From assembly GCF_035917575.1 (NCBI RefSeq), contig NZ_CP109090.1:1426001-1490000 (forward strand): a DNA stretch of 64,000 nucleotides, in the 5' to 3' direction. The notes below the pieces were generated by a model. That model was given only the letters and a program-made list of their open reading frames with translations. It had not been told where the DNA came from and searched no databases. Source of the DNA: Streptomyces sp. NBC_01788. GTDB taxonomy: Bacteria; Actinomycetota; Actinomycetes; Streptomycetales; Streptomycetaceae. Shown here one piece after another: positions 3,251-24,625 of this stretch (the stretch's first letter is position 1; every line of letters starts with the position of its first letter). The translations under genes were made by a program, and so were the position numbers.

Positions 3251-4114
3251 GGGGGACCTCCCCGTACGTCGTTGCGAATTCGGTACGGGGATCTTTGCGG
3301 CTGTGAGGTCCCTGAGAACAGGGGTCGTTGACCTTCTTTGCCAATCCGATAAGCGGCGCGACGTGTCCCGCTGAGCGGAACCCCGAGGGTCCCGGCGTCG
3401 CCCGGAAGACCGGCGGCGGTCCGCACGGGGGGCGGGAGGCTCGGGGGTGGTCCGCGTGGCGGGCGCGGGCCGGGCCGGCGCGGCGGTCGGCGTCGGGGGC
3501 TCCAGGAGTCATGAAATATAGGCTGCTTGACCAGATCGTCCCGAATTGCCGCTTAACGCGTGCCACGCCGGACGTGGGACGAGCCGCCGACCCCCGGCCC
3601 GCGCCGAGGCGGAGCTGATCGGCCGTTACCCGGAGGCGACCGGCGGGCTGGACCGCGCCGACCCGGGTCGGCCCTGGGGCACCCACCGGGCCCCGCGGGC
3701 CCTACGGGTCCCGGACGGCGAGCCGCGCACCATCCCCTTCACCGCGCCGCCAAACTGCGGAAGTTGACGTCATCCACCACCGGGGGCGCGACGGGCGCAG
3801 GAGGCGGCGCGCCGCGACACGCGGCGCGGAATGTCCCCGAATGACCGACCGCCTTTCGGTGTAGGTTCGGCTCCCTTTCCGGGACCGCCACAGTTGCGCA
3901 ACACGCCTCCCCGAACGGCGGAACAAGGCGCTCCGGTGCTGGTCCGGGGGTCGTCGGGTGAGGGGGCATCCGTTCGATCGCGAAGGTGTCCACCCGAAAG
4001 GGCGCGTGGTGAGTAACAACACAAACACTCGCTTCCATTGGGATTTTCGGACATCCGTGGGTGAAGATCCCTGTCTGACGACAAGCCCCCGCCACAACGG
4101 CGGGGCGGTCCGGG
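3251..4114. other. Long intergenic region without convincing gene
   Basis: These 864 bp separate the divergent tap and NlpC/P60 genes. Short open frames exist on both strands, but none has a start with a ribosome site or recognisable family residues. A frame at about 3600-3767 looks weakly protein-like and could be a decayed gene end. A 7-bp stem (4087-4093 with 4099-4105) precedes the riboswitch. Promoters for both flanking genes must lie here, but I cannot place them confidently. Confidence 0.5.
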
Positions 4115-18985: not shown

Positions 18986-19825
18986 ATGCAGACGAATCCC
19001 ACGTACACGAGCCTGGTCGCGGTCGGCGACTCCTTCACCGAGGGCATGTCGGACCGGCTGCCCGACGGTTCGTACCGAGGCTGGGCGGACCTCCTCGCGG
19101 CGCGGATGGCCGCCCGCGCGCCCGGCTTCCGGTACGCCAACCTCGCCGTGCGCGGCAAGCTCATCGGGCAGATCGTCGACGAGCAGGTGGAGGCGGCGGC
19201 GGCCATGCGGGCCGACGTCGTGACGCTGGTGGGCGGCCTCAACGACACGCTGCGGCCCAAGTGCGACATGGGCAGGGTCACGGGGCTGCTCACGGAGGCC
19301 GTGGAGCGGCTGGCGCCGTCGTGCGAGCGGCTGGTGCTGATGCGCAGCCCCGGCCGGCGGGGCCCCGTCCTGGAGCGCTTCCGGCCGCGCATGGAGGAGT
19401 TGTTCGCCTGCGTCGACGAGCTCGCCGCACGGCACGGCGCGCTCGTCGTCGACCTGTACGGGGCGCCGTCGCTCGCCGACCCCCGGCTGTGGGACGTGGA
19501 CCGGCTGCACCTGACCCCCGAGGGCCATCGCCGGGTCGCCGAGGCGGTATGGCAGACGCTCGGTTACGAGCCCGAGGACGCCGAGTGGCGTACGCCCATG
19601 GCGGCGACCGCGCGTCCGGGCTGGCTCGACCGCCGGGTGCAGGACACCCGCTTCGCCCGGCAGCATCTGCTGCCGTGGATAGGGCGGCGCCTGACCGGCC
19701 GTTCCTCCGGCGACGGCCGGACAGGCGCCCACTTTAGCGCTGAGCTGGGCAAAGCCTTCTGGGTCACCCCTGCGGACCACACAGACCCCGGCCCTGTGAC
19801 GGACTGGCGACGGGTGGGGCACTGA
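18986..19825 (+). CDS. SGNH/GDSL hydrolase, C-terminus replaced by islet insertion
   Basis: This 279-residue esterase-like protein has block I GDSFTEG (Ser16), an oxyanion block GGLNDT and the catalytic D-x-x-H in DVDRLHLTPEGH. The catalytic domain is complete. At the codons for SSGDG the gene crosses a 17-bp repeat (19703-19719) and continues into inserted DNA, giving about 34 foreign residues ending WRRVGH. The displaced native tail (PAKRPELLPYEDLAQ and on) is found in frame after the second repeat copy at 24530. Native length would be about 275 residues. Activity is probably retained because the active site is untouched. The substrate is unknown. Confidence 0.9.
   Translation: MQTNPTYTSLVAVGDSFTEGMSDRLPDGSYRGWADLLAARMAARAPGFRYANLAVRGKLIGQIVDEQVEAAAAMRADVVTLVGGLNDTLRPKCDMGRVTGLLTEAVERLAPSCERLVLMRSPGRRGPVLERFRPRMEELFACVDELAARHGALVVDLYGAPSLADPRLWDVDRLHLTPEGHRRVAEAVWQTLGYEPEDAEWRTPMAATARPGWLDRRVQDTRFARQHLLPWIGRRLTGRSSGDGRTGAHFSAELGKAFWVTPADHTDPGPVTDWRRVGH
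19703..19719 (+). repeat. attL-like 17-bp direct repeat
   Basis: TCCTCCGGCGACGGCCG encodes part of SSGDGR in the SGNH hydrolase and recurs exactly at 24530-24546. It is the left boundary of the islet. Confidence 0.8.
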
Positions 19826-20098
19826 CCCAGAGCCCCGCCCGGCTGCCATGCACCGATCGCAGGTCAAAGGGCTGGTGTGAACGGTTCTCGGGGTGCTCAC
19901 GCTGGTCGTGGGAGGATTCCTGAGGAGTAGATCGTCGGTCAGTGCGTTCGCCTCGACGACCTCCCCGCGGGTGAGACAGGTACTTCCGGCGGCTTTGGGA
20001 GAATGTCGTAGATCTTCCGTTCGACGCGGTGCCGCGCTGACCGACCTCGGCCTCACGCCGGGGACCGTCGGTAGCCGCGGCCGGTTCGGGAGCGGTCC

Positions 20099-20800
20099 TC
20101 AGAAGTTGGCCGCGTTGCCGGATCCCGGACCGCCAGACCTCCCGTTGTTGGCGATCACGCCGGCATGAGCCGAACCTGACCGACGAGGTTTCGGCGGAGG
20201 CTTGGGCCGCCGGGTGCGCGATGTCTCCAGCTGAACGGGGACCCCGACATCCGAAAGGAGCGCGTCCAGGGTCTCCTTAAGCTGCCGCCCGTCCGTATGC
20301 CTCGGCTGACCGCAAGCCAGCTTGGCCACGTCATCTCCCCTGACCAATACGACCATCAGCGTTCGGGTGGCCGACAGAGGGTCGCCCTCGTACGGCTCGA
20401 CGATACTCTCGACCAGATCTATGCGCGCCAGGTCGGCGATCGGCATCCAGGGCTCCGGGCGACCCGCCCGGATCAAGCGAAACCGGGGCGGGGCCTGAGC
20501 CAGGGCGAACCGAACTCGACGGACACGACGCAGTGCGCCGGCCACAACAAAGGGGGCGGCGACGAGAGAGCCGGCCACCGCGACCAGGCCGGCCACGAAC
20601 AGGCCCTCGGGAAAGTCGACGCCGAAGGCGGCCATGAACACCATGAACACGATTCCCACGCAGCCGAACAGAATCAGCATCCGCACCAGAGAAGCAAGCG
20701 CGATCAGCACCGCATGGCCGCGCGAACCGCCGGTCTCGCGGAAGACGAGGTCGGTCGTGTCACTGTCAGGTCCGGGCCGCACCAACTCACCGGGAGTCAC
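20099..20800 (-). CDS. Two-TM membrane protein behind RHS remnant (possible immunity protein)
   Basis: I do not recognise the family. The 233-residue product from the GTG at 20800 has two hydrophobic segments (about 32-57 and 63-87), then a soluble domain (RFRLIRAGRPEPWMPIADLA; LVRGDDVAKLACGQ) that resembles a PH-like cytoplasmic fold, and a basic Pro-rich tail. It begins 27 bp after the stop of the RHS-repeat remnant on the same strand, where immunity genes of RHS/polymorphic toxins normally sit. No clear ribosome site is present and the start is uncertain. The 273 bp between the SGNH stop and this gene's end hold nothing I recognise. Confidence 0.6.
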   Translation of the reverse strand: MTPGELVRPGPDSDTTDLVFRETGGSRGHAVLIALASLVRMLILFGCVGIVFMVFMAAFGVDFPEGLFVAGLVAVAGSLVAAPFVVAGALRRVRRVRFALAQAPPRFRLIRAGRPEPWMPIADLARIDLVESIVEPYEGDPLSATRTLMVVLVRGDDVAKLACGQPRHTDGRQLKETLDALLSDVGVPVQLETSRTRRPKPPPKPRRSGSAHAGVIANNGRSGGPGSGNAANF

Positions 20801-20891
20801 GCGATCCAGCCTAGACCCGGCCGCCGTCAAGCAGAAGGCAACGGACAGGCCACGATGAGCGGACCTGACCGTCGGTTCTTGCCCAGGTCTA

Positions 20892-22063
20892 GTGTCTCGT
20901 GACCCTGTCAGCGTTACTTGATCTTGTGTGTCTCGTTCTATTGGTATGGAGCTTTCCATGGAACAGGCCGCCGAGCTGCGGGAGTTGGTGAGCAGTCGGG
21001 ACGTGCCTGCGGATATAGCCACGCGGGGCCGGATCGTGCTGTGGTCGGCTGAGGGGCGTCGGCGCAAGGACATCGCCGAGCTGCTGGGAGTGTCGCTGCC
21101 TACGGTGGACCGCTGGAAGCGCCGTTATGCCGAGCACGGCGTGGCCGGGCTGGAAGGCGACCGGCCCGGCGGGGCCCGGGAGCAAGTGCCGGCACGGGTA
21201 CGGGCCCGGGTGATTGCGCTGACGCGTATGACGCCGCCGGACGGCACTGGTCTTTCGCACTGGTCCACACGCGAGTTGGCGAAGTACCTGAAGCGGACTG
21301 AGGACGTCACCGTGTCCTGGCACTACATCGCGCGGATCTGGCGGGAGGAGAATCTCAAGCCGCGCCGGTCGGGCACCTTCAAGATCTCGAAGGACCCGGC
21401 GTTCGCGGAGAGGGTCACCGACATCGTCGGGCTGTACCTGGACCCGCCCGGCGGCGCGGTCGTGCTGTCGCTCGACGAGAAGACCCAGGTGCAGGCCCTG
21501 GACCGGACCCAGCCGGTGCTGCCGGTGACCTTCGACGCGACCGAGAAACGCACCCACGACTACATCCGGCACGGCACCACGAACCTGTTCGCCGCGCTCA
21601 ACGTCGCCACCGGCCAGGTGCTCGGGGAATGCAAGACCGAAACGGAACGGTGCGACGTTCCGGGCGTTCCTGAAGAAGGCGGTCAAGCCGCACGCGGGGA
21701 AGGAGATCCACATTGTGCTGGACAACCTGTCCACGCACACCACCCCGGACGTGAAGGCGTGGCTGGCGAAAAACCCGCACGTGCACTTCCACTTCACCCC
21801 GGTCGGCTCCTCGTGGCTGAACCAGATCGAGACCTGGTTCGGGATCATCACCCGACAGTCGATCCGCCGAGGTACTTTCTCCAGCGTCCGCGTCCTCGTC
21901 CAGCAGATCCACGACTACATCGACTCCTGGAACGAGAACGCGAAACCCTTCACCTGGACCGCGACCGCCGGGGAGGTCCTCGCCAAGGTCCGACTCGTCA
22001 CGGCCAACGTCAGGAAACTCGTCAACAACGATGACAACTGACAGAAACCGGATTACGAGACAC
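20892..22063 (+). mobile_element. IS630-family insertion sequence, complete ends
   Basis: The element is 1,172 bp. Its ends are inverted, GTGTCTCGT at the left and ACGAGACAC at the right, and it is flanked by TA at 20890-20891 and 22064-22065, the target duplication of IS630/Tc1. It is inserted in the RHS remnant. The same left end recurs inverted at 24275. Confidence 0.92.
20928..22041 (+). pseudogene. IS630 transposase with one-base frameshift
   Basis: The frame from 20928 encodes the helix-turn-helix region (SMEQAAELRELV; LGVSLPTVDRWKRRYAEHG) and the first catalytic Asp (VVLSLDEKTQVQAL). Near 21636 the coding sense moves to the next frame, which continues PKRNGATFRAFLKKAVKP, IVLDNLSTH (second Asp) and SSWLNQIETWF (Glu) to the stop at 22041. 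The simplest explanation is one extra A in GCAAGACCGAAA. Programmed frameshifting is known in some IS630 elements, but no slippery run is seen here. The intact DDE set is present across the two frames. Confidence 0.85.
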
Positions 22064-22593
22064 TAGGTACTCGTGGCCCGTCGTCTTGCCGGCCGTGGTC
22101 TCGGAGGTGGTGCGGTCGAGCGGGTCGAAGGTGTACGTGGTCGCCTTCAGCGCCCCGATGCTGTCCGCCTTCTCGGACTTGATGACGTGGTCGAAACCGT
22201 CGTACGTGTTCCGCTGGACGATCTGACCGCCAGTGGTGACAGACTCCTGGCGGCCGAACAGGTCGTAGTTGTAGTTGGCCGTGGCTCCGGACGTGATCGC
22301 CGTGAGCAGTCGGTCGCGGTCGTAGTTGAACGCGGTCGTGATGCCCTGAACCGTCTGGTTGATGACGTTGGCGTTGTCATCGTGAACGTACGTCTCCGTC
22401 CCCGCGCCGTTGCCGGTCTTCACCGCCTTCCTTCGCCAGCCGGTCGACCGGGTCGTACATGTAGTCCGTGGTGGACGACAGGTATACGCCGTGTGGTCGT
22501 CGCGAGAGAGTGGGAACCCGAGCACGGCGAGCGGTGTACCAGAGATGACGGTGCATCGCGGGCCGGGCATACCGGTCGGATCGGGGGCTTCCC

Positions 22594-23802
22594 ATGAGGT
22601 GGCGCGGGGGTAAGGGCAGGTGCAGTTGGGGCATCTTGGCCGCCATCCTTCTGATAATGCTGGCTTGGGTGTCGGCATGCGTCGAGATGGACACGGACAG
22701 GAGCAAGGACGGGGGCGCGCAGGCGGGTGAGCGCACCGCTTCCCCAGAGGCGGCGGTCGTCCCCCGGATTCCGTACGGGACGGACCTGCCCGGCAGCTCG
22801 GTCGCCGTCGACTTCGCCAGGGACGCCAGTGGGTTCGCGCTGCTCGCCGAGTGTGGGAAGACACGCTGTCGGCAGCGAGTCGCCGTGCTCGACAAGGGTG
22901 CCGACGCCTGGCGGCTCGGACGTTCCCCACTGGCGGACGTGACCGTGGAGCACGGCATCACGGCAACGCTCAGGGTGCTGGGGCCCGGTCGCGCGCTGAT
23001 CACGGAGGGCGTGTGGCCTCCGCCGGACCGCACCTGGTTCACGAGTGACGGGGGACGCCACTGGCGGCCGGGCTCAGCCAGGCCCTCGGGCACGACCTTG
23101 GTGCTGCCCGAGGGCGTCGCCCTGTTCGAGGACTGCACACGGACGGACCAGGAGGGCAACAACTGTGAGCACGCCCGCATCCTCACGGCCCTGCCCACCA
23201 CCGGAGAGTTCCGGTCCCTGGCCACTCAGCCCCCACTCCAGCCCCCCGTGATCCCGGCCGGGCAGACCAAGGACCTGGTCTTCGCCTCCGGTCGTGACCC
23301 GCGCTCCGGCCGTGTCGCACTCGCCGTCAGCGAGGACAGGGGACTCAGCTGGCGGTTGTCCCGGCCCACGGGAACCGGAGAGTCGGTCTGGGCCCTGCAC
23401 GTGACCGGAACCGGAAAGGTGCTCTACGCGGCAGAGCCGGGCCAACTGCCCGACGAGGACAACGTGAAGAACGGCCTGCTGGCCCTCCACCGCAGCACGG
23501 ACGGGGGCCGCACCTGGGAACGCGTCTGGGAACACCGCAAGAGCGTGGAACCACGCTCCCTGCTCGGCACGCCGGTCGCCGCCGTCGACGGCAGCCTGAC
23601 GATCTACAGTGAGGACGGCATCTGGCGCAGTACCGACGGCGGTCGTTCCTTCACGCGCCTCCGAAACTCCGCAGGGATGTCGGGCTGGGTGACCACGACA
23701 GCGCTCGGCTACCTGTGGGGCGACAGCTTCGGCGCGGGAAGCTGGCGCATATCCACCGACGGTGTCCACTGGACCAGGTTCGAACTGGGCAACCGGACCT
23801 GA
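22594..23802 (+). CDS. Asp-box (BNR) beta-propeller lipoprotein
   Basis: This 402-residue exported protein starts with a basic end and hydrophobic helix closing in VSAC, a plausible lipobox with Cys29. The mature part carries Asp-box motifs SxDxGxxW at TSDGGRHW, SEDRGLSW, STDGGRTW, STDGGRSF and STDGVHW, characteristic of sialidase-type beta-propellers. No sialidase FRIP motif or catalytic Arg triad is apparent, so it is better seen as a binding propeller than an enzyme. It is the only intact plausible cargo gene of the islet, oriented opposite to the RHS remnant. Function unknown. Confidence 0.8.
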   Translation: MRWRGGKGRCSWGILAAILLIMLAWVSACVEMDTDRSKDGGAQAGERTASPEAAVVPRIPYGTDLPGSSVAVDFARDASGFALLAECGKTRCRQRVAVLDKGADAWRLGRSPLADVTVEHGITATLRVLGPGRALITEGVWPPPDRTWFTSDGGRHWRPGSARPSGTTLVLPEGVALFEDCTRTDQEGNNCEHARILTALPTTGEFRSLATQPPLQPPVIPAGQTKDLVFASGRDPRSGRVALAVSEDRGLSWRLSRPTGTGESVWALHVTGTGKVLYAAEPGQLPDEDNVKNGLLALHRSTDGGRTWERVWEHRKSVEPRSLLGTPVAAVDGSLTIYSEDGIWRSTDGGRSFTRLRNSAGMSGWVTTTALGYLWGDSFGAGSWRISTDGVHWTRFELGNRT

Positions 23803-23859
23803 GCAGGGTCGGGGACTGGCACGGTGGCTGCCGCTCGGTTTCCAGTCCCCGCCGCTTCA

Positions 23860-24275
23860 ACGTCCTCAGTCCGCTTCAGGTACTTCGCCAACTCGCGTGT
23901 GGACCAGTGCGAAAGACCAGTGCCGTCCGGCGGCGTCATACGCGTCAGCGCAATCACCCGGGCCCGTACCCGTGCCGGCACTTGCTCCCGGGCCCCGCCG
24001 GGCCGGTCGCCTTCCAGCCCGGCCACGCCGTGCTCGGCATAACGGCGCTTCCAGCGGTCCACCGTAGGCAGCGACACTCCCAGCAGCTCGGCGATGTCCT
24101 TGCGCCGACGCCCCTCAGCCGACCACAGCACGATCCGGCCCCGCGTGGCTATATCCGCAGGCACGTCCCGACTGCTCACCAACTCCCGCAGCTCGGCGGC
24201 CTGTTCCATGGAAAGCTCCATACCAATAGAACGAGACACACAAGATCAAGTAACGCTGACAGGGTCACGAGACAC
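23860..24275 (-). mobile_element. Truncated IS630 copy (left 416 bp), inverted
   Basis: This segment reads as the reverse complement of 20892-21307 of the complete IS630. The encoded transposase N-terminus (126 residues) is identical in both copies. It ends abruptly at 23860 inside the transposase gene after ...YLKRTEDV, so the right end is lost. The terminal GTGTCTCGT abuts TA at 24276-24277, where it interrupts the serine recombinase gene. Confidence 0.92.
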
Positions 24276-24428
24276 TAGCCACACATGACGGACGGTGTAG
24301 CCGTTGCGGTCGGCCCAGCGACGCCCGGAGGCCTCCTGCGTGTCGGTGGACTGCTCTCGGCGGTGGTCGTCCTCCGGCAAGTTCTTGCTCTTGCGCGGGT
24401 AGAGGTCTATGAGAAGCTTGCTGGCCAT
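24276..24428 (-). pseudogene. Large serine recombinase, N-terminal fragment
   Basis: From the ATG at 24428 the minus strand encodes about 51 residues: LLIDLYPRKSKNLPEDD, then EASGRRWADRNGYTVRHVW. This is the start of the resolvase domain of large serine integrases, with the catalytic Ser expected at position 14 (YPRKS). The frame is cut at 24276 by the truncated IS630; the rest of the gene is absent. It begins about 100 bp from the right 17-bp repeat, the usual place for an integrase next to its att site. It is probably the dead integrase of the islet. Confidence 0.82.
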
Positions 24429-24529
24429 CGGGGGTGGTGTTTCTTGGTGCTCTGATTGCGCCGCCCCTCTTTCCGTAAGCGCCCGCTACCCTACGTACAG
24501 GGAACCTGGGCGGATGTCACAACGGGCGG

Positions 24530-24546
24530 TCCTCCGGCGACGGCCG
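24530..24546 (+). repeat. attR-like 17-bp direct repeat
   Basis: Exact copy of 19703-19719; here it begins the displaced 3' end of the SGNH gene. Right boundary of the islet. Confidence 0.8.
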
Positions 24547-24625
24547 CCCCGCGAAACGGCCCGAACTGCTGCCCTACGAGGACCTGGCGCAGCCCCCGAC
24601 GGCGGCCGACGCGGAGCTCTCGTAG
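24530..24625 (+). pseudogene. Displaced native 3' end of the SGNH hydrolase gene
   Basis: In the frame set by the 17-bp repeat, this encodes SSGDGRPAKRPELLPYEDLA, then QPPTADAELS and a TAG. It has no start codon and would complete the SGNH hydrolase gene if 19703-24529 were removed. It marks the pre-insertion structure. Confidence 0.8.

Follow-up and report, generated by a model that had tools for sequence, protein, structure and literature searches.

Introduction

Four described systems are among the closest to a locus of Streptomyces sp. NBC_01788 in which a 4.8-kb islet separates an SGNH hydrolase gene from purB. This locus belongs to the window, the whole stretch of 64,000 nucleotides that was analysed (contig NZ_CP109090.1, positions 1,426,001 to 1,490,000 of the forward strand). 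The ssrA islands of Dehalococcoides, with the serine recombinase DsiB, resemble it in having an integration module beside an attachment (att) repeat, in using one conserved target gene end and in forming tandem islands, and it has been suggested that those of their modules without integration genes are mobilised in cis by accretion, a further likeness to the SGNH site (PMC3146451). However, their target is the transfer-messenger RNA (tmRNA) gene, whose 3' end is repeated, whereas the SGNH site lies in a protein gene and the supplied peptide is different (PMC3146451). Prophage e14, inserted in the 3' part of an enzyme gene, icd of Escherichia coli, brings replacement codons and leaves the old end behind as a pseudo-gene piece; this replacement is conservative, the supplied end having nearly the same sequence (PMC6379469), whereas tails A and B of the SGNH enzyme, introduced below, have neither sequence nor length in common. 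Mycobacteriophage Bxb1 likewise employs a serine integrase and a bacterial attachment site (attB) within a protein gene, but its insertion inactivates GroEL1 and causes a biofilm defect (PMC9262239), while the SGNH hydrolase keeps its GDSL domain whole and bears the new tail in many species. Finally, the scab pathogenicity islands TR1/TR2 of Streptomyces are similarly modular, with an internal att site and a cis-mobilisable module, but differ in their recombinase (IntSt), their 8-bp att sequence and their target, aviX1 (PMC8369830). No description of the SGNH integration site was found among the best-ranked open-licence matches of the literature, which is not proof of absence. What is unusual about the locus is that a protein end is replaced by a tail that is constrained yet not homologous to it, and that is also found in the absence of an element.

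It is proposed here, with a probability of about 85%, that the islet was once an integrative element of the large serine recombinase type and has since decayed to a remnant, and that one C-terminal end of the enzyme (tail A) has recurrently been swapped for another (tail B) in this manner. The attachment site would lie in the SSGDGR codons of a conserved Streptomyces SGNH hydrolase gene upstream of purB. The element would carry replacement codons, tail B, beside the core of its own attachment site (attP), so that insertion would replace tail A by tail B and displace the core together with tail A to the purB side. Various kinds of elements would have used the site repeatedly, being able to stack in tandem, and in other lineages tail B would simply be the end of the enzyme, with no element seen. 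At the level of sequence, the comparisons presented below establish that the site is exact, that it exists in empty and in occupied form, that tail A has been displaced, that tail B is linked to elements and that insertion recurs, and they reveal recombinase relics.

The SGNH locus and its empty counterpart

The window comes from a one-contig chromosome of 8.27 Mb (genome G000). Its genes follow the order of a gene that we take to be CBS-domain-like, the SGNH hydrolase gene, the islet and purB, and the flanks match those of Streptomyces sp. CB01373 at 98-100% identity. The features on which the argument rests are the following:

18986 to 19825, plus strand: SGNH/GDSL hydrolase gene with tail B, 279 aa (PF13472, 3e-24); orthologues across the genus
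19703 to 19719, plus strand: left 17-bp core copy (putative attL), exact repeat
19720 to 19825, plus strand: putative element-borne tail B (34 residues) and stop codon; orphan copies in islets, decoupled synonymous divergence
24279 to 24428, minus strand: N-terminal relic of a large serine recombinase, 50 codons; 90% identity to intact P0159, 80% to P0149
24429 to 24529, minus strand: putative right arm of the element; resembles the arms of CB01373, G309, G403 and G155 (36 bp)
24530 to 24546, plus strand: right 17-bp core copy (putative attR), exact repeat
24547 to 24625, plus strand: displaced C-terminus (tail A), apparently the original one, detached from the gene body; like the intact end of G396, peptide identical to the displaced copy of CB01373
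24685 to 26127, plus strand: purB, adenylosuccinate lyase, right-flank marker (TIGR00928, 4e-125, on a longer open reading frame containing purB)

Both copies of the repeat, TCCTCCGGCGACGGCCG, are exact and lie within SSGDGR codons of the SGNH gene, 4827 bp apart from start to start, and the repeat can be extended to 24 nt with 92% identity. Reading through the left copy ends in SSGDGRTGAHFSAELGKAFWVTPADHTDPGPVTDWRRVGH and a stop codon that finishes at 19825, and the right copy reads SSGDGRPAKRPELLPYEDLAQPPTAADAELS up to a stop codon finishing at 24625. No tRNA or tmRNA gene was found in the window. By itself the repeat is weak evidence of integration: exact direct repeats of at least 17 nt with a spacing of 0.5-8 kb number two in the 64 kb, the 17-mer has a third exact copy elsewhere in the genome, and with up to 2 mismatches it occurs at 42 genomic sites, compared with 44 for a reversed control. 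The other repeat of the window is an exact 18-bp direct one (GGCGCTCCGGTGCTGGTC, at 3927 and 10943, about 7 kb apart), unrelated to the 17-mer. The 17-bp repeat is judged to be real because both tails are homologous to the ends of orthologues and because the site is empty in G396, the nearest relative with tail A.

In G396 the gene reads SSGDGRPAKRPELLPYE without interruption, and its intact end is tail A. When the window flanks were joined at the core, a single alignment to G396 ran across the junction with 95.6% identity over 2997 columns and 2 gap openings; the displaced tail A of the window is therefore, judging from this alignment, the host's own end. These results bear out several proposals of a sequence-only reading of the window, namely that an exact 17-bp repeat bounds 4.8 kb, that the SGNH gene to its left has lost a C-terminus found on its right in the matching frame and ending at 24625, and that an orthologue without the islet should read through. 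The same reading had placed an integration site in a protein-coding gene, which agrees with the displaced C-terminus, the empty site of G396 and the relics found elsewhere. There is good support for a specific integration site of serine-recombinase elements within the coding part of the SGNH gene, at its 3' end.

Two alternative ends of the enzyme

An SGNH orthologue was detected in 384 of the 392 Streptomyces genomes sampled (E<=1e-95), and SGNH matches were present in 39 of 41 genomes (40 relatives and that of the window). The 26 loci with the gene end in view all finish in either tail A (RSSGDGR/L-PPKRPELLPYE...) or tail B (RSSGDGR-TGAHFSAELGKAFWVTPADHTNPGPVTDWRRV and variants). By direct reading, no similarity is recognisable between the two beyond the core, and the supplied end is not homologous to the displaced one. 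Since the ends of the five loci read in a second family of the order resemble tail A (AAKRPEP and similar), tail A is probably the older. The sequence-only reading had the enzyme re-tailed with about 34 foreign residues: the tail has indeed been swapped and is linked to elements, but it is not peculiar to this islet, as 82 of the 392 genomes carry tail B (E<=0.001). Among the 112 rows of SGNH loci placed on a tree, 79 have an SGNH frame that is open and finishes with tail B; 43 of the 79 fall outside a group referred to as the far-B clade.

Tail B found no convincing match in phage records, where the weak matches numbered 25 (E<=10) and the best of the 20 listed had an E of 2. Of the 16 matches in plasmid records one is genuine; it lies on the 2.8-Mb linear replicon of Streptomyces sp. 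BHT-5-2 (E 3e-13). This match was considered as a free attP and rejected, since a contig of equal length in G327 bears tail B as the C-terminus of a complete SGNH gene. AlphaFold2 models of the tail-B enzyme were weak at the tail, with two strands (247-251 and 256-260) and block means of 44-54, and those of the tail-A enzyme gave a tail below 50 with one short helix; because the models are weak there, no claim is made about the fold of either tail. Tail B may be functional. The constraint on it is moderate, to judge by the ratio of nonsynonymous to synonymous differences (pN/pS), which in the tail codons past the first eight is 0.34 (29 near-B genomes) and 0.48 (36 far-B), compared with 0.13 and 0.11 in the body next to the core; these values come from ungapped offsets, which could not be trusted in body sequence further from the core.

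Among near relatives of the window, the type of tail goes together with the occupancy of the site. In 27 loci with about 1.5 kb of downstream sequence, chosen like all rows from listings with the best matches first and not at random, purB was absent from that stretch in 22/22 with tail B and present at a distance of 60-125 bp in 5/5 with tail A. Within the 46-row clade of the window, all 24 tail-B rows are occupied (purB at least 2 kb away or outside the stretch read), whereas purB lies within 500 bp in 17 of the 22 tail-A rows and at 0.5-2 kb in another 3. Five tail-B rows had no purB in the stretch: G260 has it at a distance of 163 kb, and in G236, G160, G011 and G339 it is found on a different contig. 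The remaining intervals between tail B and purB in this clade measure about 2-18 kb, and that of G403, outside the clade, 34 kb. The interval of G260 (G260:C1 4835832-4999190, about the first 19 kb of which were read) may be a large element or a rearrangement. A displaced core with tail A was found downstream in 17 of the 43 tail-B genomes outside the far-B clade, 15 by script and two by inspection (G309 and G160); G364, not counted, shows a displaced tail A in another stretch. Some displaced copies are altered, with a stop in G404 and changes in G381 and G309.

Recombinase relics beside the core

The sequence-only reading had also proposed the start of a large serine recombinase some 100 bp from the right repeat. 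The start is there, at 24428, but what remains is a dead stub of about 50 codons cut by the end of an IS630-family insertion sequence, intact relatives being found in P0159 and P0149. By direct reading, the IS630 end is joined at a TA and the CB01373 gene continues through codon 51; in the window, the inner side of the truncated IS630 copy and the remainder of the recombinase gene are missing. The gene would have been destroyed by IS630 insertion and deletion. Large serine recombinases have resolvase and recombinase domains and often a zinc ribbon. The relic has no Pfam or NCBIfam match of its own. P0159 is an intact recombinase of 515 aa from Streptomyces sp. NPDC002055 with the domains PF00239 and PF07508, and P0149 is an intact metagenomic relative.

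Recombinase relics adjoin the core in seven genomes (the window, CB01373, G309, G403, G160, G364 and S. tailanensis), and in the first four the start lies about 100 bp from it. The G403 relic shares 95.5% identity with P0159 over 110 residues, and this piece is 54%, 52% and 43% identical to the integrases of the Streptomyces phages Sycamore, Shaeky and phiK38-1, respectively, all three being phage records. The same 110-residue query gave no plasmid match and no relative in viral contigs, nor did P0149 find a relative among viral contigs. A recombinase of this kind would presumably perform the exchange at the SGNH site. Elsewhere, G067 encodes an intact recombinase of a related subfamily with all three domains (L157 10183-11781), located after a different gene.

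Repeated use of the site

Different lines of evidence indicate that tail B travels with the elements. Orphan copies of tail B, with no SGNH body attached, occur inside the islets of G386 and G339 (2 of the 82 genomes), and that of G339 directly follows an alpha-like right arm and core (85-87% over 48-54 bp), an arrangement that would be expected for two elements in tandem. In aligned sequences of near-B genomes (30), divergence at fourfold sites is lower in the tail than in the body (0.224 vs 0.394; tail lower in 365/435 pairs) and the two do not rise together (Spearman -0.17), while in the 36 far-B genomes the values are 0.551 and 0.416 with a Spearman coefficient of +0.38, genome pairs not being independent, so that no significance is claimed. 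Between the window and CB01373, fourfold differences amount to only 1.3% for the SGNH body and 2.3% for purB, and yet the right ends of their elements share 88.8% identity (11.2% difference) over 250 aligned bases and nothing in 19858-24274 of the window aligns to CB01373. With such similar flanks and dissimilar interiors, different elements have entered the same site in near-identical chromosomes. On a quick tree of SGNH bodies (112 rows; 3 of 115 loci dropped for a missing motif; 45 of 109 inner branches weak), parsimony requires 18 tail changes, 5 of them forced by starred branches alone. The orphan tails, the decoupled synonymous sites and these different elements in near-identical strains together show that tail B is carried by the elements and that the site has been entered more than once.

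At least four groups of right arms can be distinguished. The recombinase-bearing arm is found in the window, CB01373, G309 and G403, and also in G155; the alpha arm in G185, G078, G270 and the internal copy of G339, with G124 and G244 having the same module body; the gamma arm in G259 and G404; and the delta arm in G260, G386 and, by eye, G284. The core common to these groups is, also by eye, about 9-12 bp. In G078 and G185, the predicted genes from tail B to the right end of the alpha module include no integrase that could be noticed by eye, and two of them match radical SAM and methyltransferase families; a cassette of about 3.2 kb with these two kinds of genes is 95-97% identical, approximately, in five genomes (L114 2293-5452, G078, G270, G244 and G124). 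Tandem modules split by att copies are seen in G386 and G339, with internal core and tail B. The islets look like an accretion of cis-mobilisable modules, those without a recognised integrase having presumably moved in trans or in cis. The G403 islet (L127 6542-15646) encodes a DruM2-like cytosine methyltransferase, Vsr, a GmrSD_N/HEC-05-like protein and an SNF2 helicase, possibly a defence cassette.

The possibility has to be considered that a single integration took place in a Streptomyces ancestor, with tail A representing excisions and tail B the descendants of the occupied state. It would account for the basal rows G067 and G051, which have tail B, and for tail labels clustered on a tree that cannot polarise the changes. 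It sits poorly with the uncoupled synonymous divergence of tail and body in the near-B group, with the different elements held by the window and CB01373 in near-identical flanks, with several displaced tail A copies that have barely decayed, and with right ends in at least four groups. A single ancient event is thus largely refuted for the near-B group and is very improbable overall.

Tail B without a visible element

The far-B clade comprises 36 rows (support 88, not starred) in which the gene ends in tail B, with purB less than 500 bp away in 27, at 0.5-2 kb in 5 and further or not seen in 4. Orthologues ending naturally at the left-hand tail had been named in advance as a case against the islet model, and this check came out half against it: many do so without an islet, as in this clade; tail B is tied to occupied sites in the clade of the window. 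Tail B is thus a widespread alternative end, element-tied in the window's clade and without a visible element in the far-B clade. The far-B end would be either what is left of an old integration stripped down to its tail, or the source from which elements took it.

This distribution gives some room to an account in which tail B is an ancestral SGNH allele and the window acquired it by homologous recombination with a B-type donor, islet and repeat being a by-product. Most of the 36-row clade has tail B with no visible element, and the basal row G153 has it with purB 109 bp away. Such an exchange is nevertheless improbable, given breakpoints at the core on both sides, a displaced tail A and purB flank like those of G396 (95.6%), orphan tail Bs within islets and remote from any SGNH body, and recombinase relics beside the core in seven genomes.

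Several observations weigh against recurrent element-borne replacement. In the far-B clade no displaced tail A was seen in the stretch read (0/36), and the far-B tail may never have been element-derived. Outside it, 26 of the 43 tail-B genomes showed no displaced tail A, many of them having been read over 4-6 kb only, and in the window's clade purB is at least 2 kb away in 2 of 22 tail-A rows. On the body tree the tail labels are clustered beyond all 500 shuffles (shuffle mean 28.9), so that much of the tail distribution is inherited. The first 30-codon block of the near-B body has a fourfold difference of 0.18, as low as that of the tail. Between the window and CB01373 the tail differs at 6 nt with 0/18 fourfold sites changed, differences that lack the signature of strong purifying selection. 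No intact recombinase was found at the SGNH site, the seven copies seen being all broken or shortened (that of G309 judged so from a 35-residue match without a longer open reading frame), and no integrase was recognised in the stretches read of the other arm groups. In a scan for dyad symmetry, 884 of 2000 shuffles reached the observed value for attB and 133 of 2000 for attP; the best centres found for attB and for attP coincide in G403 but not in the window, CB01373 or G309.

Other contents of the islet

The interior of the islet holds the following further features:

20099 to 20686, minus strand: 195-aa open reading frame with hydrophobic stretches (by eye), putative cargo; the enclosing 324-aa frame has no Pfam match
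20889 to 22066, plus strand: IS630-family insertion sequence with a frameshifted transposase (NF033545, 7e-45)
22022 to 22423, minus strand: RHS/YD-repeat gene fragment (PF05593, 2e-4, at the 22-bit cut-off)
22594 to 23802, plus strand: BNR/Asp-box-like protein gene, 402 aa (PF02012 and NF045728, both under their cut-offs)
23860 to 24278, minus strand: second, truncated IS630 copy, an exact 419-bp inverted copy of the first by sequence comparison

The reading of the first transposase shifts to another frame after about 21650, and the truncated copy at 23860-24278 is the sole other near-identical IS630 copy in the genome. The frame of the BNR/Asp-box-like gene is intact despite the decayed state of the islet. 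The two inverted IS630 copies, one exact over 419 bp, could suggest that they moved the segment as a composite transposon and that the 17-bp repeat arose by chance, for which the second, unrelated exact repeat of the window provides a precedent. However, the islet is not bounded by the IS630 copies, and comparable junctions recur in other genomes although most of their islet content bears no relation to that of the window. The empty site and these shared junctions refute the composite transposon, whose likelihood is negligible.

Significance

Among the protein-gene sites compared, insertion either breaks the gene (Bxb1 in groEL1) or restores nearly the same end (e14 in icd), whereas the SGNH end appears to have been repeatedly swapped for an unrelated, conserved peptide. 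Tentatively, and with the odds somewhat against it, the elements may act as a tail-swapping device that spreads a selected alternative C-terminus of the SGNH enzyme through the genus. The new tail would change a partner, the location or the substrate of the enzyme, and selection would keep it after loss of the element, so that an att arm would now be part of a chromosomal enzyme. The analysis also maps an integration hotspot of Streptomyces, one of whose islets has DNA methyltransferase, Vsr and GmrSD-like genes as cargo, and names P0159 and P0149 as intact candidates for the integrase of a new att system. With the SGNH site one can test whether the insertion sites of integrases give rise to novel protein ends which selection then retains.

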